Assembly (NCBI GenBank): GCA_023105745.1
Contig: JALGQZ010000001.1
Coordinates: 61,047,937 to 61,111,936 of the forward strand
Direction: 5' to 3'
Length of the DNA: 64,000 nucleotides
Source of the DNA: Austropuccinia psidii
Taxonomy: Eukaryota; Basidiomycota; Pucciniomycetes; Pucciniales; Sphaerophragmiaceae
The position numbers were made by a program, and so were the translations under genes. The first letter of the stretch is position 1. Each line of letters begins with the position of its first letter. The notes beneath the pieces were generated by a model. The model saw only the letters and a list, made by a program, of their open reading frames with translations. It searched no databases and was not told the DNA's origin. Below are positions 4,009 through 18,552 of this stretch, in pieces.

Positions 4009-4130
4009 TGTGGTATGCCATACCATATCAGCTTAATAAATTTTTTTTTTTTGAGGGGAGCGAAAAGTAGAAGAACCCCTATGGGTAGCCTCTGTTGGAA
4101 ACAAAAGAAAAGGATCTCTGTCCCAGTTGG

Positions 4131-5158
4131 CACAGCGCGCATTTGACGGACATTGCACATGCAACGTCACCCTTTCGTTACAGTAGGGTATTCCCACGGA
4201 GCCCTGTCACTTGCCCCAACGACAATTCCCAATTTGAGAACGACAGACCCTCCAATGAGGTTTTGAGCAACGACAGCAACACCTCTTCACAATGGCTGCT
4301 CTTCATGCTCTTACAACATCAACTCACCACTTAAAAGACACCCCTCTTTGAAGCTGCTGGGTGATGCTTTTGGGCATAAACTTTTGCCCGACCTCAAGTG
4401 CCCATTAGCAAAACTCAAACCAGACCTATCTCTTTTGGCGGTGCAGCTGGTTAGTTGTGTATACATTAATTGCGCCCTTGAGCACAATATAGGTCACTTT
4501 GATAATCTAAAACCTTGCGCACACGTCCCATAAGATTCTGTTTGTTTATCCCAATTTATTTGGTTATCAAACAGGAAAAGCAATCAAATTTTGTAATTCA
4601 TTAATCATGAATTATAAACTTACTTCATTGAATTCTTCAATTATGGTTTTGATGAAGTTTATATAAGATATACAAAACATAGCAAAAAAAGACAGTTTCC
4701 TATTTTATGAATTTTAATAATATCTATATAAATAGATATTAACGAATATTTGAAAAGAACCAGGATCCCACTTGCACAGCCCAGGTAGACAATGTGTCAA
4801 TATTTTATTGCACCTCTACGGCTCTTATGTATTTAATGGGAGATATTAGGCTTTTATTTTGAAGATTCCCCGACTTTATTCTTTTCTAACAGACTATAAC
4901 TGGCCATTATACAGTAAGTCTCTGACTAACCCATAGCAGAACCAGATGGGTCTTTTAAGTGGTGAGGTGGTGTTGTAAGAGCGTGAAGAGCAGCCATTGC
5001 AAAGATGTGTTGCTGTCGTTGCTCAAAACCTCATTGGAGGGTCTGTCGTTCTCAAATTGGGAATTGTCGTTGGGGCAAGTGACAGGGCTCCGTGGGAATA
5101 CCCTACTGTAACGACAGGGTGACGTTGCATGTGCAACGTCCGTCAAATGCGCGCTGTG
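4131..5158. mobile_element. TIR DNA transposon (non-autonomous, CACTA-like), 1,028 bp
   Basis: Ends are CACAGCGCGCATTTG and its complement, with terminal inverted repeats of about 210 bp matching almost base for base. The direct repeat TGG flanks it (4128-4130, 5159-5161), and the 3' LTR of G shows the empty site (CCCAGTTGGTAAGG, about 17001). The middle is AT-rich and non-coding, so it has no transposase. CAC...GTG ends and a 3-bp duplication fit the CACTA/CMC group, but the TIR is not the canonical CACTA or CACTG, so superfamily is tentative. Confidence 0.88.
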
Positions 5159-5661
5159 TGGTAAGGTGATGCCTTGTGTCAAGGAAAATGGCCATGTCAT
5201 TGGTTCAAGCCACATTGAAGACATAAAAAAAAAAAAAAAAAAAAAATTAAAAATGTCAAAATTTTGGAAAATACTTTTAAAGTTTAAAAAATACCTGAAA
5301 CCTAACCCTAAAATAAAATTAGGTTTCAGCCCACAAATTGTCCTCAAAAATCAAAAATTCTAAATTCAAGACAGCAGAAGGAGGATACATAAACAGATTA
5401 CATAAGCAGGAAGGAGTTAAGAAAGTATTAGTAATCAGATTACTTGATTAGTAATACTTAGGGAGCTAAGGATTAGTCAGCAAGTCTAAGGATTAGTAAT
5501 CAAGTTCAAATAAGCACCAGCAAAAACACCTCAAATTAGTAAGCAACCCAACAAATGACATCATTTAGGTGGGACCACCAGAAAAGAATTTTCCCAGCCA
5601 AAAGAAACTGAAAAATTCTAAGTCCCTCTTTTTGAACACCTCCCATGGAGAGCCCAAAAAT

Positions 5662-5670
5662 TATAAATAG
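5662..5670 (+). promoter_or_regulatory. TATA box of element G LTR
   Basis: TATAAATAG followed by AGGGCC and a pyrimidine-rich stretch (CTCTCCCCC, TTTTCCTCTTTCCC) looks like an LTR core promoter. Start of transcription would fall near 5690-5700, giving U3 of about 0.65 kb (without the nested element) and R/U5 of about 1 kb. The same box is at 17519-17527 in the 3' LTR. Confidence 0.65.
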
Positions 5671-5789
5671 AGGGCCTCTCCCCCAAACTTTTCCTCTTTC
5701 CCTCATGTCTTTTATCCCCCCTAAAGTGGAAAGTGGATTTAAATTCATCCCTGACTATCAGGTTAACTAGTCTACAAATATATAATTCT

Positions 5790-5962
5790 ATTATATAAAG
5801 GATAAAAAGGCCTTATATAATAGTCTTATAATATAAAAAAAAAGTCTTAAAATAAAGAATCAGTCTTATAAAAAAAAGTCTTATAAAAAAAAAAGAAAAA
5901 AAAAAACTTTCTAATATAATTTTATTATATAAAGGATAAAAAGGCCTTATATAATAGTCTTA
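5790..5962. repeat. Duplicated palindromic block inside the G LTR
   Basis: A 40-bp segment occurs twice (about 5790-5829 and 5923-5962). Each copy has arms ATTATATAA and TTATATAAT around GGATAAAAAGGCC. Between them are shorter repeats of AGTCTTATAA. The arrangement is retained in the 3' LTR (about 17647-17820). Confidence 0.7.
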
Positions 5963-6696
5963 TGAACTTAAATTAAATAAAATAGTATTTTAAATGGATT
6001 TCACCTTATTATAAGCAATCAAAAGCTCTGAAGAAGGAAAAGAAGGGTCATTTAGTTATTTTTTTTAAGGAGTTAATATTATTATTTAATTTCATAAAGT
6101 CATACTTTGGTCACTACAAGGACATTTTATTAATGATAAAGGGAAAAAAAACCTATTATAAGAATACAATAGTGTTATTCTTATTAAAAAAGAAAGAATT
6201 ATTATCAAATTAAATTATCAAAGAGGGGCTATTAATTAGTCTGGTCATATCAGAATTTCATTATATAAATACATAATAAATCATTAACCATAAAAAAAGT
6301 GTTTGATTGTTTGTTCAGTATTATTATTAGTCTAGTGTCTCCATATTATATTGAGTTATTGTTGTAGTAGTATTTTGTGTGATTTGTGCTAGTCTTATTT
6401 CTTTTGGTTAATTAAATAGTGTTATATTTAAAAGGTTAAATAAATATTTTGAGAACAAGCAAAGTCTGATTGAGTCTGTTGAATACACTTTTCTGAATTA
6501 GCCACCATCAATAAATAAATTGATTGTGAACTCAAGTTAAGATAATTCAGCATTTTTCAGGAAGGGCAGTCTAGATTATTCTAGCACACAAGCAGAGCAA
6601 GGGTTACAAGCTTGAACAGCAATTCAAAACTGTTTTCTTGTAATTTCCCCTTCCAGGTACTGCCTCATTTTATCCCACACAAGAGGAGTTCCCACA

Positions 6697-6727
6697 TCTG
6701 GTGTCTCAACAGTGGCAGTCAGATAGG
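6697..6727 (+). promoter_or_regulatory. Candidate primer-binding region of element G
   Basis: Directly after the LTR comes TCTGGTGTCTCAACAGTGG, then CAGTCAGATAGG. A PBS normally begins TGG within a few bases of the LTR, so TGGTGTCTCAACAG (from 6699) is the candidate; I cannot match it to a tRNA by eye. It differs from the TGGGGGCCTGGC found in families A and B. Confidence 0.45.
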
Positions 6728-7059
6728 AATATCATCAGATTCAATTTAGCTTGATATCAAAATATATATATTTATTAAACCTGGAATCATATAATCACCT
6801 AAATAAACCATTTTCATCATCATCAAAATCTCATTCATCATCATCATCATCTGAATCTTATCATTACAAATTACTACTAAAATCAAAATCACCAGGACAG
6901 ACATCACAAGAAAGCTTGAGTAATTTGATATCAACACCAAATACAAGAAGAAAAGAAGAAGATAGGTTAAAGGAATTCTTCTTTAACCTAATCAAAGAGT
7001 ATAAAGAAAGAAAACAGGAAGAAGCAAAATTTGAAGGAAAAACATACAAAGTAGAAAAA

Positions 7060-10000
7060 ATGGATCAACAGTCAACATCAAAATTACCACCATTACCTGA
7101 AGATACTGTGGAAGGTCAGTATGAAGAAGAAGAGGGAGAAGAGGATCAAACTGTGAAAATACAGAGCTTTATGAAGCAAATGCAAGATTTTTTGTTAAGT
7201 CAAACCAGTAAAAAAGGAAAAAGAAGACAATCAATACCAAATACACCAGGGAATAGCCCTAGTGAATCAACATTACCAAGGCATATAAGACCAGAAGATT
7301 CACCAATATCACCAACACCTGGACCAAGAGCAACCCCTACTCCAGAAACAAATCCAAGAGTTAACAATATTCCAAGAAGAGCTTTTATCTCTACACCTAA
7401 TAACCCAAGTCCATTACAGCAGCAAGTGTTAAAGCAGGAAAGGCCAGTGGTTAAAATTAAAGCAAAAGATTATAATCTCAATTTTAATGGAGAGGAAGTA
7501 GAGAAGTTTATTAAGAAGGTTGAAAGAATTGCTCAAATTGAAGGAGCAACAGATGAAGATTTAGCAATGCAGATGGCATTTTGGACAACAGACTCAAGAA
7601 TTAGTGATACCATAGAAGCTATGCCAGGATATGAAGAAGGTAATTGGACACAACTGAAGAAGGACCTTATAACCAAATGGGGAAGAGTTGAACCAGAAAG
7701 AAGATATAGCATAGATTCCCTTATTCAGCTCTTCAATGATACACAAGATGAAGGAGGAATCAGTACTTTATCAGAGTATAAAAAGTTTATTGGAGAATAT
7801 GAAACTATCATTACTTACCTTTTAAGATACAAGTATATTCCCCAAGAGAATATGTTCCATGAGGATGTATTTGATTGTCTCTCTGCAGATATCAAAGGTG
7901 CTATCAGCAAGGAAATGATTAAAGATAATGTTATGGTTAGAGCAGAAGATGGAGGATATCTCATACCACCTATGAGAATATTAAAGAAGTATATTGAACA
8001 AGAATTGGAAGCAAGAATATTAGTCACCAAAAGACTATCATCCCCAAGAATTAAAACAGTAAAGAATGAATCAATCACCAAGGAAAATAATGTTAAATTC
8101 AAGGAAGAATTATTTCCAGGAATGCAGGAAGCTTTGAAGAAGATGAAGGAGCTTACCAAAACTCTCAAGGAACAGCAAGTAGTGGTTAATAAAGAAGTAC
8201 CTAGAGAAAAAGAAGTTTCTAAACAGTTTATGGAGCAACTGGATGAATTAAGTAAAATTGCTAAACCACAAAAGATAGCTTATGCTAACCCTCAAGCTGA
8301 AAATTCAGGATTCAGACCAAAAGAAAATTTACCACCAGCATCATCAAGATATGTGCCATATGCACCAGCTCAAAATGCACCAAAACCATTTGTTAGATGT
8401 TATTACTGTTCAGAAGAAGGAAACTCCACAGGAAGATGTAATGAGCTTATTGAAGACCAAAACAAGAAATGGGTAATAAGACAAGGGTTCAATTACTTAT
8501 ATCCTAATTGGGCAAGAATTCCAACTGATGGGAAATTATCACCAAAGCAATTGGTAAGGGAATTTCAGAAGGAACAAGAAGAATTGAAGAAGAAATTGGA
8601 AGAAAAAGCAAAAGAAGAGGAACAAAAGAAGAAAGAAAAGTCAACTGCCTTTATTACCATGGACAATTGGGAAGATTGGAAACCACCATCAATATCAACA
8701 GGAAGAGAACCCCTAGGATATGCCTATGGGTTAAGGAATACAAAGCAAAGAAGAGAAAGTGAAGACAGAGCTAAGGCTCAATCACAGCCATTACCTGAAA
8801 GAGAAGTAACTCAACCTCAAGAAATACTTAAGAAAAAGACTAGTATCCCAGGTGGATTTATTGATAATGATGATCAGGAAGAAGAAAAAGTAATTATACC
8901 TACAAGATATAAATCACCAAGGCCTTTAGAGATTAATAAGGAGGAAGAAGGAGCCATACATAAGAATAAAGCACCACAAAAGCAACCTATGGATGAAGTT
9001 AAAGCCATAATTAAAGCACCCAAAGAAGGTAGATCAGTTATCAAGCCAAAGAAAGAAGATAAAGAAGAAGTACTAATAGTTGAAAACGTTATTAACAAAG
9101 TCTTGGATCAGAAAATAAATCTTACTTTAGAGGAAATATTCACCATATCACCAAGGTTCATGAATGAATTAAAATTCCTTTCTGATAGAGAAAAGAAATA
9201 TTTAATGTCTCTTAAGTCAGTCAATAATGAAGAGAGAGTGGAAGATCAAGAAGCCAACCAGCAAGATATAATAATTGAAGAAAGAATGCATTATGCATGT
9301 CCACTTGGAATGATTGAAGTTTCCATTGGACTGGAAGGTCATAAAGTAAAAGCATTAGTAGATACTGGAGCAGAATTGAGTATAATACCAGAAGTTGAAT
9401 CCATAAAATCAGGAATACCAATGAGAGCACTAAACATGAGGTTGAAAAGAATTGGAGGACATAGTACAGCAATTGTTGGCTTATCTGAGAATACCTTACT
9501 TATTTTACCATCTGGTGATGAAAGAAAAATTCATTTCTTTGTAGCCAGAGGGGAAGTTCATACTGTTATTGGGAGACCATTTTTGGCTGACAATGGTATT
9601 AGACTTGAACACTCACAGACTCAGGGTGAAATTTTAAGTTTCAGGGAATTGGATGGAAGAAGATTATGCATACCTATATGCTCACCAGAAAGCAAAGGAT
9701 GGCATGCACAACCACCAAAGGGAATGGAGTTGTGTAATATGGCAAAAGTGGATAAAATGGAAGTACAAGATAATAATGTAGAATCAAGGTTTGAAGAAAT
9801 AAACTCAGGGGAAGTTCAAGAGAAGCAGAAGAAGAAAGAGGATAAATTTGGAAACATACCCAATATGGAAGAATATCCTAGCATAGAAAAGGGTTTAGAA
9901 CAGAAAAAGGACTCCAAGGCTAAAAGTTTATTCAAAAAGATCTCCAAGAAATATGGCAAACAGGGTACCATTTGGAAGAAGAAACAAAAAGATACTATTT

Positions 10001-11304
10001 CAAAAGAAGATCATCCCAGTGTTCCAAAAATGAATAATTCACCAAGAATCAAGGTATTTATTTCCAAAATTGTCAGTAAAATAAAAAGGAATCATCAAGA
10101 TTCAGTTAAATGGGATTTTAAATCCTCAGAGAAAGAACCAACCTCAGAAGAAGAATTAAGCAAGGAAGAAGAGTTAAATAATCAAATGAACCTTCAAGTC
10201 AACCGTATTACACCTGGAAAAGAACCAAGGCAGAAAGAACCAGAAATAAAAATGTCAGAAGGATTACCAAGTGAAACCCAATCTGAAGCCAACATAAACA
10301 ATGACCAAATGGAATTGAATAATATGGATTTATTAGAAGAAAGTACTGAAGAAAAAATCAAGAGAAATAAGAAAAGAGAAGCGATGAATTTTAATCTCAA
10401 TATATGTAACTTAGAAGGGAAAAAGCCCAGTGAGGAGGCTTCAACTGAAAATATAATTGCAGAAAATCATCTTGTTGGAATTGATCATAGCCTTAGAAAC
10501 TTTTCAACCACTTATATAAGGCTGGGATATGAGACAATACCAATTATGGCAATTTTGGATGAAACTTCACCTTTAAATATTATACCCATAAAAATGGCAA
10601 CAGAAATGGGTATAGGACTCAAGAATACTCAGATGCATATATGGAAGAATCATATTTTAAGGAATAAAACAGCTGGAAAGGTTTTGGTAACACTCACAGC
10701 TGGAGAAACTACTTATTTAAAATTTTCAGCAACAAGAATTGATTATGTTGTTTTGGGTCAACAATTTTGTGACTACTTCAATATAGTAAGAAGATTGAGG
10801 AATTACCCTCAAGAAAAAAGAAAGAATAAGGAATTAAGAGCCTCAAGATCAGGAATTGAAGAATACAAGGGTCATATCTTAGAAAAGGAAGACAAGGGAT
10901 ATGGAAATTTGGATTTGGAAGAATATGATAGATCATTAAAAAGACAGTATAATATGGGATACTACTATGATCAACAAAGAGAAGAGGAAAGTGCTGCAAG
11001 AGCAAAATTGGACTATGTCAATGACAGCATTAAGGAAATTAATGGCATAAATGAACCAATGGAAGGAACAGACTTAAAATGGACAGAAAGTCAAAGTAAT
11101 AAAGATGAAGAAGCTACAGAAGGCTATCAAGCATTCAATTTGGCCTTATCAGACTATAATGAAGAGGAAAATATGGAAATTAATGAGTATTCTTTGTTCA
11201 ATCAGCAAATATCTGAAAAGGAAGTGAACTGGGAAGAATTAATTTTTGGAAGAAACTTGGAAGATAAAAAAAAAATGTTACTAGAGCTTCAAGTCCAGCT
11301 CTGA
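7060..11304 (+). CDS. Gag-protease polyprotein of element G (1414 aa)
   Basis: The frame opens at 6751, but the first ATG is at 7060, before MDQQSTSKLPPLPED. Residues 1-100 are acidic with a basic patch, then Pro/Ser-rich. About 140-340 is a Ty3-type capsid region (YNLNFNGEEVEKFIKKVERI, then LSEYKKFIGEYETII). The zinc knuckle is at 447-460, CYYCSEEGNSTGRC, with Asn for the usual His. A Glu/Lys coiled-coil stretch follows. A retropepsin domain is at about 740-870 with active-site DTGAEL (Asp768), GGHST and a GRPFLAD block. Another protease-like domain lies near 1140-1240 (ILDETSPLNIIP) without the DTG. The coding frame is undamaged over 4.2 kb and stops just after an A10 run. It would form virus-like particles and self-process. 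No RT follows, unlike ordinary Ty3 elements. Confidence 0.88.
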   Translation: MDQQSTSKLPPLPEDTVEGQYEEEEGEEDQTVKIQSFMKQMQDFLLSQTSKKGKRRQSIPNTPGNSPSESTLPRHIRPEDSPISPTPGPRATPTPETNPRVNNIPRRAFISTPNNPSPLQQQVLKQERPVVKIKAKDYNLNFNGEEVEKFIKKVERIAQIEGATDEDLAMQMAFWTTDSRISDTIEAMPGYEEGNWTQLKKDLITKWGRVEPERRYSIDSLIQLFNDTQDEGGISTLSEYKKFIGEYETIITYLLRYKYIPQENMFHEDVFDCLSADIKGAISKEMIKDNVMVRAEDGGYLIPPMRILKKYIEQELEARILVTKRLSSPRIKTVKNESITKENNVKFKEELFPGMQEALKKMKELTKTLKEQQVVVNKEVPREKEVSKQFMEQLDELSKIAKPQKIAYANPQAENSGFRPKENLPPASSRYVPYAPAQNAPKPFVRCYYCSEEGNSTGRCNELIEDQNKKWVIRQGFNYLYPNWARIPTDGKLSPKQLVREFQKEQEELKKKLEEKAKEEEQKKKEKSTAFITMDNWEDWKPPSISTGREPLGYAYGLRNTKQRRESEDRAKAQSQPLPEREVTQPQEILKKKTSIPGGFIDNDDQEEEKVIIPTRYKSPRPLEINKEEEGAIHKNKAPQKQPMDEVKAIIKAPKEGRSVIKPKKEDKEEVLIVENVINKVLDQKINLTLEEIFTISPRFMNELKFLSDREKKYLMSLKSVNNEERVEDQEANQQDIIIEERMHYACPLGMIEVSIGLEGHKVKALVDTGAELSIIPEVESIKSGIPMRALNMRLKRIGGHSTAIVGLSENTLLILPSGDERKIHFFVARGEVHTVIGRPFLADNGIRLEHSQTQGEILSFRELDGRRLCIPICSPESKGWHAQPPKGMELCNMAKVDKMEVQDNNVESRFEEINSGEVQEKQKKKEDKFGNIPNMEEYPSIEKGLEQKKDSKAKSLFKKISKKYGKQGTIWKKKQKDTISKEDHPSVPKMNNSPRIKVFISKIVSKIKRNHQDSVKWDFKSSEKEPTSEEELSKEEELNNQMNLQVNRITPGKEPRQKEPEIKMSEGLPSETQSEANINNDQMELNNMDLLEESTEEKIKRNKKREAMNFNLNICNLEGKKPSEEASTENIIAENHLVGIDHSLRNFSTTYIRLGYETIPIMAILDETSPLNIIPIKMATEMGIGLKNTQMHIWKNHILRNKTAGKVLVTLTAGETTYLKFSATRIDYVVLGQQFCDYFNIVRRLRNYPQEKRKNKELRASRSGIEEYKGHILEKEDKGYGNLDLEEYDRSLKRQYNMGYYYDQQREEESAARAKLDYVNDSIKEINGINEPMEGTDLKWTESQSNKDEEATEGYQAFNLALSDYNEEENMEINEYSLFNQQISEKEVNWEELIFGRNLEDKKKMLLELQVQL

Positions 11305-11771
11305 AGGAAAATTTATATGAAGAAAGTGACATGAATTTTCCCCTTGATAATAATAAACAAATGAATGACAATAATATTTCAGATGAGGAAATATTAAGGC
11401 AAATAACAGAATTTTTGAAAGAAACCACCAATAAGGAACAGGATAAAATACCTCAAATACCTCAAGTTACAGAATTTCCCATGTGTAGAAATAAAAAGAA
11501 GTTGCAAAAGAGGAAATTCAAGCATAAAAGACAAAATAATACTTCAAAATTAATAAGAAAGATTAAAATGAATATAAATTTCACCTTGGAAATGAACCAT
11601 AAAAAGAACAAAAGGATGCCCTTAAATAAAAAAAATTTAAAGGAAGAAATATTTTCCTTTATGAATAATTTTTTCTTTAATGATAAAACAATGAATATAT
11701 ATAATAAAAATAAACATAAAAAAAGAAGATTTAAGGTCCAAAGGAAGGGAAAATCCTCCCTAGAGGCCTAA
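11274..11771 (+). CDS. Basic C-terminal frame of element G, probably joined by frameshift
   Basis: This frame opens at the ten-A run 11266-11275 and reads NVTRASSPALKENLYEES, then the first internal ATG (11331). About 165 residues, acidic at first (SDEEILRQITEFLKET) and then very Lys/Arg-rich, ending at TAA 11769-11771. It directly overlaps the end of the gag-protease frame, which terminates at 11304. A one-base slip at the A run would append it to the polyprotein. The basic tail could bind nucleic acid (inference). Whether this is programmed slippage or a recent indel cannot be decided from one copy. No known domain seen. Confidence 0.6.
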   Translation, partial: NVTRASSPALKENLYEESDMNFPLDNNKQMNDNNISDEEILRQITEFLKETTNKEQDKIPQIPQVTEFPMCRNKKKLQKRKFKHKRQNNTSKLIRKIKMNINFTLEMNHKKNKRMPLNKKNLKEEIFSFMNNFFFNDKTMNIYNKNKHKKRRFKVQRKGKSSLEA

Positions 11772-12916
11772 AATTTTCCATTTATTTGTATTATTAACTT
11801 TCTCTGTATAAAATAAAAAGTTATAAATAAAAAATAATATAATAAAATAAAATAAAACAATAAAAAATATAAAAAAAATATAAAATAAAAAAATAAAAAT
11901 AAAAATAAAAATAAATTTTAATAATAAAAATCAAAAATCAAAAATATATATATATTTGTATTATTATGTGGTTGGGCAATTCAGGCTCTTTTACCTTATA
12001 CAAGCATTTTATTGAATGTATTTTGTTTTTTGTAATTTTTATTTTATTTTTTATTATTTTATTATTGTTCTTTTTTATTCATGATCTTAGAAAATAATCT
12101 ATAAAATTAATTCAATATATAAATATATATGTATATATAAAAGTAATATAAAAAAAAGGTATATATACACAAATAATATATGATAAACTATTATGATGAT
12201 TCTTTTATCTTGTTTTTTTTTTAAATTTAATAAAAGTATTATTATTATTTTATTTATTTTTCTTTTTTTTCTTTTTTAACTAAATAAAAAAAATATATAA
12301 TATAAACTAAAAACTCAAGTATTTTTTAGTTTATAGTAAAAAAAAAAAAAAAAAAATTATTAAAAAAAATAAATAAATATATATATATATACTTAAAATA
12401 GAAGTTTAATGTCCTAAGTAAGACATTAAACTGCTTAAACTTAAATTGACACTTAAAACTTAGCTTTATTGAAATTTTACTTAAGTTTTTTTTAGCGCTG
12501 GTATCTACAGCCTAAAGGCTGTTTCTTTTTCTTAAAAGTGGGGCAGTTTATGGATCCGGGCAGACAGTTACATTTATAACTTCCAGCAGCAGTACCAAAA
12601 CACTTGATAAATAAAAATAAATAAATAAATGAATAAACAAATAATATAATAATAAAAAAAAACAATCAATTAAATAATAATAATAATAAATTGAAAGACC
12701 TGAGCAGAACTCAGGCACTAAAAGCAAACAACGATTCAGACATTAAGCGTTTATTTTATCGTTTACAACCTACATTACATGAATTATTTTTTATTTCATT
12801 TTTTGTTATATTATTTTTTTTAGTTCGTTTAGTAATGAATAAAAAAAAAAAGATAAAAGTAACTAAATAAGTCTAGTAATGGCGCTGGACGTGTTTGATA
12901 ATGAGCTTAAGAGCCA
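11772..12916. other. AT-rich spacer of element G
   Basis: Long A/T runs and (AT)n, with two GC-richer islands at about 12480-12600 and 12700-12770. These could be 3' untranslated or exon parts of the antisense gene. Contains the hairpin at 12405-12430 and a second hairpin ACAGCC-TAAA-GGCTGT at 12507-12522 followed by a T-rich run. No RT or integrase motif on either strand. Confidence 0.55.
12405..12430. repeat. Isolated copy of the G hairpin motif (9-bp stem)
   Basis: TTTAATGTC, 8-nt loop CTAAGTAA, then GACATTAAA, followed by CTG. Same design as the minisatellite at 15796-16367, 3.4 kb away, but with T-A instead of G-C at the third stem pair. Confidence 0.75.
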
Positions 12917-13763
12917 TCAGGCATGGAAGATCTCCTCGTACGGTCCGTTTGTCGGATAGTAAGTAGGCTCGGATGGTGGCTGCTGTTCAGAAATGAGGAT
13001 CGAAATCCTTGGTAAAAAAAAAATAATAATATAATAATTATTTAAATATAAAAAAAAACATAATAATAATAAGAATAAAAATAAAAAGTAAATGAATGAA
13101 GAGGACTTACTCCTCTAAATGAGTGTACCAAAGTACAATGGATCGAAGGGAGGCCATGATGATGTCGTGAGCATCGCGAAAAGTATCGTAGGCGGGAGGT
13201 GTGGTACCAAAAAATAGGTGCATGTTAGCACCGAGCTGATTCATCTCAGCGTCGAAAAGAAAAAAATAATAACCGAAGTCAATTTTCAACTCGTCAATTG
13301 TTGGAATTAAAGGAGGAGTCGGGATCTCAGATTGAGCCCAGGATGGTGTAGCAGGGGAGGCAACAGAAACGTTAGGTAAAATTGGGGGGGGAGAAGAGTC
13401 CTTCAAATCAGAAAACATATTCGAGAAGGGGGAAATCGCAGCTACAGGATAGGAATTAAGGTTTGGATCAACAGGGAAGTTCGGAACGGTTGTAGCTGCA
13501 GAAGAGGAATCGATTTTTGAGTTTGTACTATTATTTGTAGTACTGCTCGGTTCATCATCGTTATTCGGTGGAGGATTTTGGGAAGTGGGAGTAGGTAAGG
13601 GATTATAAAATGAGGGATGAAGAAAGTTATTTGACACCGTATATAAATTGAAAAAAGGACCGCTCGGAAGCGGTAAATTGAAACTATAACAAATGTTGTT
13701 GAAATGAATAACAACATTCTGCTCTTCAGAAGCGTTAGGGCAAACTTCGAGAGAAAAAGACAT
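12917..13763 (-). CDS. Spliced antisense gene inside element G, unknown protein (247 aa)
   Basis: Two coding exons on the strand opposite to gag: 13763-13111 and 13007-12917. The intron (13110-13008, 103 nt) starts GTAAGT and ends ACCAAG. Unspliced, the frame would stop at once (TAA in the donor). Spliced, it stays open for 29 more residues, ISILISEQQPPSEP then TYYPTNGPYEEIFHA, to TGA. ATG is at 13763-13761. The protein begins MSFSLEVCPNASEEQN. It has a Pro/Ser/Thr/Asn-rich middle and a hydrophobic C-terminal part near 150-217 (DELKIDFGYYFFLFDAEM, then FRDAHDIIMASLRSIVLWY). No family recognised and no catalytic motif. GC content is clearly above the surrounding DNA. It may be a captured cellular gene or an element accessory gene. 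Confidence 0.68.
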
Positions 13764-13905
13764 ACTGCACTATCCGTAGCAAAGAAATAAAATGGGCTTA
13801 TAACCAAAATAGAAAGGGCGACAAATATTAAAAAAAAAAAAAAAAGTTGGTCAGTATGAAGTAAAAGAATTAGATCAGCGAAGAGTGGGTAAGAAGGAAA
13901 CTTAC

Positions 13906-14067
13906 CTAAAAGTCGGCTAATCCCTCCTAATGCACCGGATACGTAAAAAAAAAGAAAACGTTAGTAAGGAACAAACAGAAAAGGGTAGATTAATAAAAAA
14001 AAACTTACATAGAGCAAGTGATGAAAGCATATGAGATCGGCCAGTTATTTTCTGCTGATTGACAACA

Positions 14068-14098
<31 letters not shown>

Positions 14099-14210
14099 AA
14101 CAAATAATAATAAATAAAAAAATTAAGATAACAAACAGACAAAATAAAATAAAATAAGAGAGACTTACGTAGAATTACGACAATACGATATGACATTGGC
14201 CAGTTTTCTT
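13906..14210 (-). other. Putative 5' leader exons of the antisense gene
   Basis: Upstream of the antisense ATG, three further GTAAGT donors lie on the minus strand (first bases at 14168, 14008 and 13905). They end GC-richer islands set in poly-A/T tracts. The intron 14008-13927 has a TTACTAACG branch site (13967-13960) and acceptor GCATTAG, giving a 21-nt exon (13926-13906). Two islands (about 14169-14208 and 14009-14051) look like diverged copies: both have ACTGGCC followed by TCATAT. The exact exons and any upstream coding are uncertain. Confidence 0.5.
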
Positions 14211-15390
14211 GCCGATCGATGACAGTAAAAAAAAAAAAATGATAATAAATTAAAAATAATTAATAAACAAAACATAAATAAATAAATAAAAGACAGAGAT
14301 GCGAAGAACCCCACAATAATGATCGGAATAAGAGAAATACGACACCACAATTAAAACGAAGAAAGCAAATAGCAGTCGTCAAGGTGGAAGTCAATCAATG
14401 ACGAAAGATAACGTAAAAAAAATAAATAAATAATAAAAATAATAAATAAAATAAAAAAAAAAAGAGGAAGAGAGTGGGTTTTTGGACAGGCGCGAGTCCA
14501 AACACCGTCGACAAGTAATGCAATGACGAAAACCACGCAGCTGCTGCGTAGCAGCCGCGCGACCTGTTACAGGACTTTTTTACATGTGCTACGTTGCATA
14601 TGTAAATGAATAATAATTTTATTATTTTTTTTTAATATTTTATTTATTATTGGTACATAAGATTACCATAAAAAAAAGAATTATTATAATAATTATAATT
14701 AAAAGAATAAAAAAATAATAAATAATATTATAATAATAAAAAAGAAAAAAAAAAAAAAAAAAAAAAAAATTAAAAAAAAAAAAAAAAAATTAAAATTAAA
14801 ATTCTACAAATATATATTAAGATTTAAAATTGAATATAGAATTATATATATAAAGATTAATTTAATATACATATAATTGAGTATTTATTTATTCTATTTA
14901 ATTTAATTTTTTAATATTTCATTTATTTCAATATATAAATATAAATATATATATATATAAAATAAAATAAAATAAATAAACATATGTTTCAATTTTATTT
15001 ATTTTCAATATTCAACATTAAAAAAAAAGAAATAAATCATTGAATAATATAAGTTTGGATTTATTCTTCATTTCTTTATTGAATACATTAAAAATATACA
15101 TATTGAAATTAAATAAATAAAAATATATATAATTTAGATATATATATATTTAAATATTAGTTTATTTAATTCTCAACAGCATCATCAAAAGAAAATATCA
15201 AAAGTGGTAAAGCTACATCAGATGTAGCATTTACATATAAAATTAATCCATAAAAGTTATACAAAAACAGAAATTCAATCAAAAGTCCTTAGTAAGACTT
15301 TAAAAGGCTAAATTTATACTAATTCATATAAAAAAAATGAATAATTAATCAGTATTCTCCACTTGTTTATTATCTATTAAAAAAAAAAAA
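14211..15390. other. AT-rich spacer with GC-richer islands upstream of the antisense gene
   Basis: Islands at about 14290-14410 and 14470-14600 stand out from the A/T runs. The second contains a hairpin GCTGCT-GCGT-AGCAGC and may hold the antisense promoter or first exon (inference). 14600-15280 is almost pure A/T. A hairpin copy AAAGTC-CTTAGTAA-GACTTT is at 15282-15301. No protein gene visible. Confidence 0.5.
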
Positions 15391-15412
15391 TGGAGAGGGG
15401 AATATTCCCCTC
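15391..15412. repeat. PPT-like palindrome, copy 1
   Basis: ATGGAGAGGGG continues into a perfect 18-bp palindrome GAGGGGAATATTCCCCTC (15395-15412). The left half repeats the polypurine tract found at the 3' LTR of the same element (16872-16886). Confidence 0.75.
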
Positions 15413-15593
15413 AATATCATAAATCTATAGCTATTATATGCACAATAATAATATACATTAAAGTCAAATTTGGCTTGTGTTTTTTTTATTATTATTTCAT
15501 TTTTTTTTCTGTAGAAGAGTAGAATTGCTCATCATTTTTATGGTAGTGCTATAAAAGAAATAAATAAAGTAAAAATAAAGAATAAAAAATGGA

Positions 15594-15609
15594 GAGGGGT
15601 TGAACCCTC
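15594..15609. repeat. PPT-like palindrome, copy 2
   Basis: AAAAATGGAGAGGGG again, with the palindromic form GAGGGGTTGAACCCTC. The inner bases differ from copy 1, but the GAGGG/CCCTC arms are kept. Confidence 0.65.
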
Positions 15610-15795
15610 AGCCATATAATCCATAATTAATGGAAATGGTTTTATTTCAGTTTCATTGCATATTATTTATATGTAATTTGAATATATACAATTTATTTAG
15701 CCTTTTTTATCTTATTTGGTCTGTAAATTTGGTTTGTGTATTGGATTATTGGTCATTTTATCAGTGTAGTCTTAGTGTATTTTTTAATAATCATA

Positions 15796-16367
15796 AAGGT
15801 CCTGGTCAAGACCTTAAACTGTCCAAATCATTTTTTTTATCTATCAACAAAAGGTCCTAGAAAAGACCTTAAACTGTCCAAATCATTTCTTTTTTTATAT
15901 CTATAAACAAAGGTCCTGGTCAAGACCTTAAACTGTCCAAATCATTTTTTTTATCTATCAACAAAAGGTCCTAGACAAGACCTTAAACTGTCCAAATCAT
16001 TTCTTTTTTTATATCTATAAACAAAGGTCCTGGTCAAGACCTTAAACTGTCCAAATCATTTTTTTTATCTATCAACAAAAGGTCCTAGACAAGACCTTAA
16101 ACTGTCCAAATAATTTCTTTTTTTATATCTATAAACAAAGGTCCCGGACAAGACCTTAAACTGTCTAAATCATTTTTTATATATACTTTATCAAAGGTCC
16201 TAGACAAGACCTTAAACTGTCCAAACCATCTTGTATTTATTTATTTTTTATCAAGAAACTTTAATAATTCAATCCAAGGTCCTTAGTATGACCTTAAACT
16301 GCCTCATAAAGATATTTGATTTCAATTATAGTCTCAGGGCAAAAACAGAGGTCCTGGGCAAGACCTT
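15796..16367. repeat. Hairpin minisatellite of element G (10 units)
   Basis: Ten units, each AAGGTC, 8-nt loop, GACCTT, usually then AAACTGTCCAAATCAT and a T-rich spacer. Unit starts are 15796, 15851, 15910, 15965, 16024, 16079, 16138, 16194, 16276 and 16348. Spacing alternates 55 and 59 bp through the first seven, so the array grew by two-unit (114-bp) steps. Loops vary (CTGGTCAA, CTAGACAA, CCGGACAA, CTTAGTAT) while stems are kept; the last has a G/T pair at the outermost position. No reading frame is maintained and spacers are not unique, so this is not coding or CRISPR. Confidence 0.85.
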
Positions 16368-16449
16368 AAATTGTACCAAATTATTTCTATTTATTTTTTA
16401 TAGAAAATTATGGTAGAAATAGGTAGCTGGAAGGAATTTATCAAATGGA

Positions 16450-16465
16450 GAGGGAAATTGCCCTC
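16450..16465. repeat. PPT-like palindrome, copy 3
   Basis: AAATGGAGAGGG with GAGGG-AAATTG-CCCTC. Third upstream relative of the polypurine tract, 0.4 kb before the true one. Confidence 0.6.
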
Positions 16466-16871
16466 AAATAGTAATTATGGTACTGGAACAGAAAAGAATT
16501 TTTTATAAAAAATAAGGGGTGGTACTTATTTCTTCTCATCACTCCTTATGATGTTAAGTTTTGGGGGAGTAGTGGAAAATATGTAGTTATTCAATAGCTT
16601 CATTAGCATTTATCTCATTTTTTCTATTATATAAAGCAAGAAGAATAAAAAAAAGAAATCAGACATTCAATCAGATATAAGAGCAGGGAGATTCAAAATC
16701 AATATAAAGAACCATCAACAGACAATCTCAACATAATTAAACTGTGAACATAAAATATGGCATACTTGCCATAATCAATCAAGATCAATATAAAAATTTT
16801 TTGGAAGAAGAAACAGAAAAAAAAAAAAATCATTAAGCTTCAGTTGGATAATGAATGCTGGGGACAGCATT

Positions 16872-16886
16872 AAATGGAGAGGGGGA
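16872..16886 (+). promoter_or_regulatory. Polypurine tract of element G
   Basis: AAATGGAGAGGGGGA lies directly against TGTGG, the first bases of the 3' LTR, where the plus-strand DNA primer is expected. It confirms plus orientation of the element, matching the gag strand. Confidence 0.82.
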
Positions 16887-18552
16887 TGTGGTATGCCATA
16901 CCATATCAGCTTAATAAATTTTTTTTTTTTGAGGGGAGTGAAAAGTAGAAGAACCCCTATGGGTAGCTTCTGTTGGAAACAAAAGAAAAGGATCTCTGTC
17001 CCAGTTGGTAAGGTGATGCCTTGTGTCAAGGAAAATGGCCATGCCATTGGTTCAAGCCACATTGAAGACATAAAAAAAAAAGAGAAAAAAAAAAAAAAAA
17101 AAATTAAAAATGTCAAAATTTTGGAAAATCCTTTTAAAGTTTAAAAAATACCTGAAACCTAACCCTAAAATAAAATTAGGTTTCAGCCCACAAATTGGCC
17201 TCAAAAATCAAAAATCAAAAATTCAAGACAGCAGAAGGAGGATACATAAACAGATTACATAAGCAGGAAGGAGTTAAGAAAGTATTAGTAATCAGATTAC
17301 TTGATTAGTAATACTTAGGGAGCTAAGGATTAGTCAGCAAGTCTAAGGATTAGTAATCAAGTTCAAATAAGCACCAGCAAAAACACCTCAAATTAGTAAG
17401 CAACCCAACAAATGACATCATTTAGGTGGGACCACCAGAAAAGAATTTTCCCAGCCAAAAGAAACTGAAAAATTCTAAGTCCCTCTTTTTGAACACCTCC
17501 CATGGAGAGCCCAAAAATTATAAATAGAGGGCCTCTCCCCCAAAATTTTCCTCTTTCCCTCATGTCTTTTATCCCCCCTAAAGTGGAAAGTGGATTTAAA
17601 TTCATCCCTGACTATCAGGTTAACTAGTCTACAAATATATAATTCTATTATATAAAGGATAAAAAGGCCTTATATAATAGTCTTATAATATAAAAAAAAA
17701 GTCTTAAAATAAAGAATCAGTCTTATAAAAAAAAGTCTTATAAAAAAAAAAGAAAAAAAAAGTTTATAATATAATTTTATTATATAAAGGATAAAAAGGC
17801 CTTATATAATAGTCTTATGAACTTGAATTAAATAAAATAGTATTTTAAAAGGATTTCACCTTATTATAAGCAATCAAAAGCTCTGAAGAAGGAAAAGAAG
17901 GGTCATTTAGTTATTTTTTTTAAGGAGTTAATATTATTATTTAATTTCATAAAGTCATACTTTGGTCACTACAAGGACATTTTATTAATTATAAAGGGAA
18001 AAAAAAACCTATTATAAGAATACAATAGTGTTATTCTTATTAAAAAAGAAAGAATTATTATCAAATTAAATTATCAAAGAGGGGCTATTAATTAGTCTGG
18101 TCATATCAGAATTTCATTATATAAATACATAATAAATCATTAACCATAAAAAAAGTGTTTGATTGTTTGTTCAGTATTATTATTAGGCTAGTGTCTCCAT
18201 ATTATATTGAGTTATTGTTGTAGTAGTATTTTGTGTGATTTGTGCTAGTCTTATTTCTTTTGGTTAATTAAATAGTGTTATATTTAAAAGGTTAAATAAA
18301 TATTTTGAGAACAAGCAAAATCTGATTGAGTCTGTTGAATACACTTTTCTGAATTAGCCACCATCAATAAATAAATTGATTGTGAACTCAAGTTAAGATA
18401 ATTCAGCATTTTTCAGGAAGGGCAGTCTAGATTATTCTAGCACACAAGCAGAGCAAGGGTTACAAGCTTGAACAGCAATTCAAAACTGTTTTCTTGTAAT
18501 TTCCCCTTCCAGGTACTGCCTCATTTTATCCCACACAAGAGGAGTTCCCACA
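16887..18552 (+). repeat. 3' LTR of element G
   Basis: 1,666 bp, TGTGGTATGCC to GTTCCCACA, uninterrupted. It shows the empty site for the TIR element nested in the 5' LTR. TATA box at 17519-17527 and inverted repeat CTGAAACCTAA / TTAGGTTTCAG from 17152. About a dozen substitutions separate it from the 5' LTR. Confidence 0.93.

Follow-up and report, generated by a model that had tools for sequence, protein, structure and literature searches.

A predicted intron-bearing antisense gene in an apparently pol-less LTR retrotransposon of Austropuccinia psidii

Antisense genes of LTR elements have been described in plants and in retroviruses. In plant Retand elements, antisense frames are located between the sense genes and the 3' LTR, and about half of the elements carry tandem repeats in this region (PMC11963269). 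Some members of the Retand/Tat group are described as non-autonomous (PMC11963269, PMC7264820), and gene23 of Grande is transcribed from a promoter situated upstream of gene23 itself (PMC7264820). The word "intron" occurs nowhere in the main texts of PMC11963269 and PMC7264820, and the latter closes by asking for searches for antisense and spliced transcripts. In the retroviruses, HBZ of HTLV-1 and APH-2, APH-3, and APH-4 of HTLV-2, HTLV-3, and HTLV-4 are expressed from antisense transcripts that undergo splicing, and they influence expression driven by the LTR (PMC10186651). In the open-access literature that we searched, no spliced antisense gene was found in an LTR element of a fungus.

The genome of the rust A. 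psidii is reported to consist of more than 90% transposable elements (PMC8063080), and RNA-seq data, including a time course of infection, exist for this species (PMC12774611). We analyzed a stretch of 64,000 nucleotides of A. psidii DNA (the window; GC content 34%), in which an LTR retrotransposon carries, on its minus strand, a long open frame with splice-site-like signals. We tentatively read this frame, at somewhat below an even chance, as part of an element-borne, multi-intron antisense gene, the acidic product of which is likely a trans-acting regulator of the element.

The LTR element and its sense coding capacity

The LTR retrotransposon spans positions 4009-18552, and both of its ends lie inside the window (Table 1). 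Both LTRs show TG...CA termini at the limits given in the table, and a 4-bp target-site duplication is formed by the ATGG that precedes 4009 and the ATGG that follows 18552. Because a DNA-transposon-like insertion splits the 5' LTR, a plain repeat search puts the start of this LTR near 5159; the two pieces on either side of the insertion are 98.4% (122 nt) and 98.3% (1549 nt) identical to the 3' LTR. Judged by the LTR identity of 98.3%, the element is young. The insertion itself has 209-bp terminal inverted repeats, which start with CACAGCGCGCATTTGACGG and are 96% alike, and it is probably flanked by a 3-bp TGG duplication; we take these termini and the duplication to recall CACTA-type transposons. 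Two bases past the end of the 5' LTR at 6696 lies TGGTGTCTCAACAGTGG, a candidate tRNA primer binding site. The palindrome-like GTCCT...AAGACCTTAAA motif occurs in 12 plus-strand copies, including those at 12411, 15285, and 15799-16351, and the putative antisense gene sits amid this series, since the copies at 12411 and 15285 flank it. An Rfam search of 4009-18552 gave 0 matches.

Table 1. Positions of the features of the LTR element and of its predicted antisense gene in the window.
Feature	Positions	Strand	Details
5' LTR	4009..6696	+	starts TGTGGTATGCC, ends TTCCCACA; terminal sequences identical to 3' LTR
Nested DNA-transposon-like insertion, 1028 bp, inside 5' LTR	4131..5158	.	inverted repeats
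Gag-protease open frame, 1525 codons stop to stop	6727..11304	+	zinc-knuckle-like motif, RVP, DETS motif
Poly(A)-signal-like AATAAA	12790..12795	-	downstream of antisense stop; second at 12755
Predicted last exon, 91 nt	12917..13007	-	joined frame; last base of codon 218, 29 codons, TGA
Predicted coding intron, 103 nt	13008..13110	-	GTAAGT...ACCAAG; donor starts 13110; 13% GC
Predicted main coding exon, 653 nt	13111..13763	-	open frame; 217 codons from ATG (13763) + 2 nt
Predicted 5'-UTR intron	13765..13905	-	GTAAGT 13905; branch-like TACTGAC 13854; acceptor 13797, 13770, or 13765
Predicted 5'-UTR intron, 82 nt	13927..14008	-	GTAAGT; TACTAAC branch motif 13964; TTAG acceptor
Predicted 5'-UTR intron	14052..14168	-	GTAAGT; acceptor 14055 or 14052; no strong branch motif
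GC-rich island, inverted-repeat cluster, candidate antisense promoter region	14460..14612	-	folding and GC profile
Tandem repeats on GTCCT...AAGACCTTAAA	15795..16244	+	repeat comparison; alternating 55/59-bp spacing
Polypurine-tract-like GGAGAGGGGGA	16876..16886	+	abuts 3' LTR start 16887
3' LTR, 1666 bp	16887..18552	+	starts TGTGGTATGCC, ends TTCCCACA; ATGG directly after

The long sense frame contains an RVP aspartic protease domain (Pfam E 3e-6, above the cut-off), and three further protease families match it below their own Pfam cut-offs. A second protease-like motif, DETSPLNIIP, is located about 400 residues past the canonical DTGAELSIIP. The frame also contains a zinc-knuckle-like CX2CX4NX4C motif, in which N replaces the usual H. 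No Pfam gag model matches the frame, and we infer the "gag" label from the layout of the zinc knuckle and the protease. A gag-pro relative from A. psidii (P0012) shares 82% identity over 69% of the query, and the gag-pro frame has no match in the plasmid collection. In addition, a lysine/asparagine-rich sense frame of 146 codons (11331-11771) begins 26 nt past the gag-pro stop; its sole Pfam match is far under the cut-off (E 0.66).

Reverse transcriptase, RNase H, and integrase were not detected by Pfam in the long frame, which matches aspartic-protease families only, and tblastn gave no match in 6697-16886 at E 1e-3 when the queries were 32 frames lying outside the element, each of 100 codons or more. 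Because neither reverse transcriptase nor integrase was found, the element looks non-autonomous, and a strongly decayed pol may have escaped detection. The matching LTRs together with the Pfam and tblastn results agree with a preliminary description of this DNA, which had presented the element as one that lacks pol.

The antisense frame and its predicted introns

The antisense frame is placed on the minus strand between gag-pro and the 3' LTR. On re-reading the sequence, we found the frame and all of the coordinates assigned to it in the preliminary description to be exact. When the 653-nt region was shuffled 2000 times with its dinucleotide composition kept and was read in all six frames, no shuffle reached an open frame of 217 codons; the longest frame had a mean of 86 and a maximum of 181 codons. 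Base use in exon 1 varies with codon position (chi2 53, p 1e-9), and the remaining five frames of the same region contain 6 to 19 stops each. The GC content is 42% in exon 1, 13% in the predicted intron, and 51% in exon 2, and the joined exons would encode a product of 247 amino acids.

The preliminary description argued that a consensus donor at the end of the frame and an acceptor that restores the frame would rarely meet by chance. The donor part of this argument retains some force, as G/TAAGT ends just 4 of the window's 253 open stretches that are 60 codons or longer, the antisense frame among them. However, a phase-2 GTAAGT (xxG TAA GT) carries an in-frame TAA, so the end of the frame and the donor constitute one fact and not two. 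An acceptor of this kind is easily found: when the DNA downstream of the donor was shuffled 2000 times, 905 shuffles contained one yielding at least 30 codons (observed best 30, shuffle mean 31), and when the GC-rich island on the acceptor side was shuffled alone, 1475 of 5000 shuffles were open for 30 codons. Since frame-restoring acceptors are this common in shuffled DNA, the acceptor half of the chance argument has little weight.

Four other features lift the splice above chance: the position of the acceptor, the difference in GC content between exons and intron, the fit of exon 2 to the joined frame, and a cluster of donors on this strand. The predicted acceptor is the first AG downstream of the donor at 13110, behind which no strong branch motif was found. 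When exon 2 was scored with the codon-position frequencies of exon 1, the joined frame obtained a log-likelihood of 1.53, versus -4.71 and -7.84; the score was reached by 146 and the margin by 145 of 5000 shuffles. Splicing of the antisense gene is predicted from such splice-site-like signals. Extension of the N-terminus through upstream exons was rejected, with an in-frame TAG (13772-13770) located just before the open stretch 13107-13769 and a short exon before this TAG showing stops in the two joins inspected by eye. An open stretch of 36 codons seen by eye at about 12602-12491 was likewise rejected as a further coding exon, having no matching donor.

Upstream of the coding region, the minus strand is rich in donor-like hexamers. 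Within 12880-14600, GTAAGT occurs four times on the minus strand (14168, 14008, 13905, and 13110) and once on the plus strand, and four minus-strand copies in 1.06 kb compare with a shuffle mean of 0.13, four or more being found in 0 of 2000 shuffles. Over the whole 14.5-kb element, there are six copies on the minus strand and two on the plus strand. The four donors are not fully independent, because two of them sit in duplicated units 159-160 nt apart. The predicted leader exons 14029-14051 and 14188-14210 are 83% alike over 23 nt, lie 159 nt apart, and are each followed by GTAAGT, which suggests that a leader exon-intron unit was duplicated.

Altogether, the signals suggest an antisense gene whose leader holds three introns and whose coding region holds one. 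The spliced structure put forward in the preliminary description is plausible, although still a prediction, and the predicted introns outnumber those it listed. Poly(A)-signal-like hexamers are located on the far side of the antisense stop (Table 1). At the opposite end, the island at 14460-14612 has a folding z of -4.46, with 0 of 200 shuffles folding equally well, and shows no match to the rest of the window at E up to 1; we infer that it is a candidate antisense promoter region.

Protein relatives and tests for selection

Relatives of the antisense protein were collected in two protein searches, the first of which yielded 4 from 349 candidates, while the second scored the 7994 candidates sharing most words, at E up to 10. 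The 11 relatives found are all named Austropuccinia psidii MF-1 and differ from the window copy by 17-42%; the donor gene that the preliminary description had looked to among fungal proteomes was not found among them. Ten of the 11 are located on contigs of 1.5-5.9 kb, and P0004, on an 82-kb contig, is cut short. Identity per 20 residues is highest at 161-218 (0.75-0.79) and 21-40 (0.75) and lowest at 61-80 (0.55).

The full exon-1 frame is covered by P0001 only. Three relatives, P0001, P0005, and P0006, stay in frame up to the junction and have LEE-stop at the position of the 13110 donor, and the other eight are cut or frame-shifted before they could reach it in frame. Among these eight, P0008 crosses the junction frame-shifted and reads FRGVSPL, which equals the window's AGAGGAGTAAGTCCT in that frame, and seven stop, shift, or end earlier (all 11 read by eye). 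Conservation of the acceptor and of exon 2 could not be seen, because 0 of the 11 relatives contain exon 2. According to the preliminary description, copies with randomly broken frames in conserved flanking DNA would speak against a gene; at the protein level, to which this comparison applies, 8 of 11 are broken before the junction, as expected for dead copies of any element.

Before the selection counts, we removed the frame-shifted tails of P0007, P0008, and P0011 and residue 1 of every relative; residues that a relative has in excess of the window were left out of account. Purifying selection was not detected in the protein comparisons of the 11 relatives. The replacements are about as radical as those expected under an assumed neutral, transition-biased model, with z between -0.8 and 2.1 (8 positive, 1 zero, and 2 negative over the 11 relatives). 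Private changes at columns where the window agrees with the majority have a mean BLOSUM score of -0.89 versus an equal-rate expectation of -0.52 (n = 128) and are, by this measure, more radical than expected. Changes of the C>T/G>A type are over-represented, making up 40 of 104 single-step changes versus 102 of 783 possible ones; this excess fits the deamination of methylated cytosine that has been proposed for A. psidii transposons (PMC8063080).

Of the 176 columns with at least five relatives, 132 also have a 60% majority, and at 117 of these the window copy carries the majority residue of the family. The simplest view is that the window holds a young, intact copy near the source sequence of the family and that the relatives are older, dead copies. 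When neutral drift was simulated to the divergence of P0001, again under an assumed transition-biased model, 2 of 150 runs remained without a stop, a figure that argues weakly for past selection because database proteins are pre-selected for being open.

Proposed role, alternative readings, and known systems

The predicted 247-residue product contains 25 acidic and 5 basic residues, and P, S, N, and T account for 42% of it. This acidity is uneven in the relatives: D+E exceeds K+R in 8 of 11, equals it in P0009, and falls below it in P0004, and in several relatives the two sums differ by no more than one. None of the 12 sequences (the product and its relatives) matches any Pfam family at E up to 1, a PDB sequence search gave no match, and AlphaFold returned no confident fold for exon 1 alone (218 aa, 9 sequences; pLDDT 34.7). 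Because basic residues are few, direct nucleic-acid binding is disfavoured and a role in protein-protein interaction is favoured for the product, and a trans-acting regulatory role appears likely by analogy with the plant antisense ORFs and HBZ/APH.

In the reading that we prefer, transcription would start inside the element, at an antisense promoter near 14.46-14.61 kb, and the minus-strand gene, with one coding intron, three 5'-UTR introns, and a poly(A) signal, would give rise to the acidic 247-residue protein. The protein may then adjust expression from the sense strand, or the way in which a partner element providing pol mobilises this one, on the model of HBZ/APH and the plant antisense ORFs. 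Introns on the sense strand are lost once spliced RNA is reverse-copied. A backward gene has no splice sites in the sense genomic RNA, and its introns would therefore be kept through reverse transcription. A bolder version, in which fungal LTR elements independently evolved an HBZ-like system consisting of a non-autonomous gag-pro element, an antisense gene that has four introns and is equipped with a promoter and a poly(A) signal of its own, an acidic controller acting in trans, and introns surviving by virtue of their orientation, is in our judgment less likely than not.

A serious alternative is that an intron-bearing rust gene was captured in reverse orientation, promoter and poly(A) signal included, and rides as a passenger without benefit to the element. 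The presence of several introns, of poly(A)-like hexamers, and of GC-rich islands resembles what is seen in a genomic gene, and relatives without a signal of selection suit such a passenger; we nevertheless regard it as unlikely, as no donor gene was seen, the relatives are as divergent and as often cut or shifted as described above, nearly all of them lie on short contigs while the one on a long contig (P0004) is truncated, and the window copy, which is young, has kept its frame open. The gene might also belong to a separate mobile element inserted backwards in the LTR element. The insertion at 4131-5158 proves that nesting occurs here, but the repeats around the gene are AT-rich, low-complexity matches (the 25 longest of 174 inverted pairs), the GTCCT...GAC motif of the LTR element itself is present on both sides of the gene, and the 14460-14612 island has no counterpart elsewhere in the window at E up to 1. 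The repeat and island comparisons gave no support to a nested LTR or TIR element as the carrier of the gene, and we consider such an origin quite improbable.

Two further readings concern the transcript and not the origin of the gene. If the transcript were left unspliced at 13110, exon 1 alone would be used to make a 218-residue protein ending in LEE, and the remainder would be 3' UTR. The stops of P0001, P0005, and P0006 at exactly this point and the frequency with which a 30-codon continuation arises by chance are in line with this reading; these three sequences are, however, predicted proteins, the position bias of exon 2 is coding-like in the joined frame, and the GTAAGT donor is followed by an AT-rich stretch without AG, all of which leaves the use of exon 1 alone improbable. 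Very improbable, in our judgment, is an antisense transcript that acts as RNA, through pairing with the genomic RNA and silencing or copy control, with the frame being incidental. Antisense non-coding retrotransposon transcripts and dsRNA silencing have been discussed for plants and animals (PMC7264820), but a 217-codon frame with codon-position bias and protein relatives would be unexpected in a non-coding RNA.

If the antisense gene is expressed, it would add fungi to plants and retroviruses, where accessory genes in antisense orientation are known from LTR elements. It would also provide a clean case of an intron-bearing antisense gene that rides reverse transcription with introns invisible to the splicing of genomic RNA, and would point to a factor that may help an element with gag but without pol to persist in a genome rich in transposable elements.

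TR-GAG and LARD elements are non-autonomous LTR elements with a gag frame and without pol. The rust element is similar to them in its LTRs, in a gag assigned from layout, and in the failure to find pol, but its gag-pro frame is very long, and it carries the putative antisense gene in addition. With the Ty3-type Retand/Tat elements, such as Grande with gene23, RIRE2, and Retand, it shares an antisense ORF downstream of the sense genes and tandem repeats in the same region. Unlike these elements, it lies in a rust genome, has no detectable pol, and has predicted introns, and the TRP28 family (PF04195) is absent from the antisense protein and its relatives (0 of 12, Pfam E up to 1). As in the case of HBZ/APH, the predicted antisense coding gene belongs to an LTR element, and its sequence contains splice-site-like signals. 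There are also clear differences between the two systems. The antisense promoter of HBZ/APH is situated in the 3' LTR, whereas the candidate of the rust element is the internal island at 14460-14612, and HBZ possesses a bZIP domain, whereas the rust protein has no Pfam match. Compared with HBZ/APH, the rust gene further differs in its three predicted leader introns plus one within the coding region.
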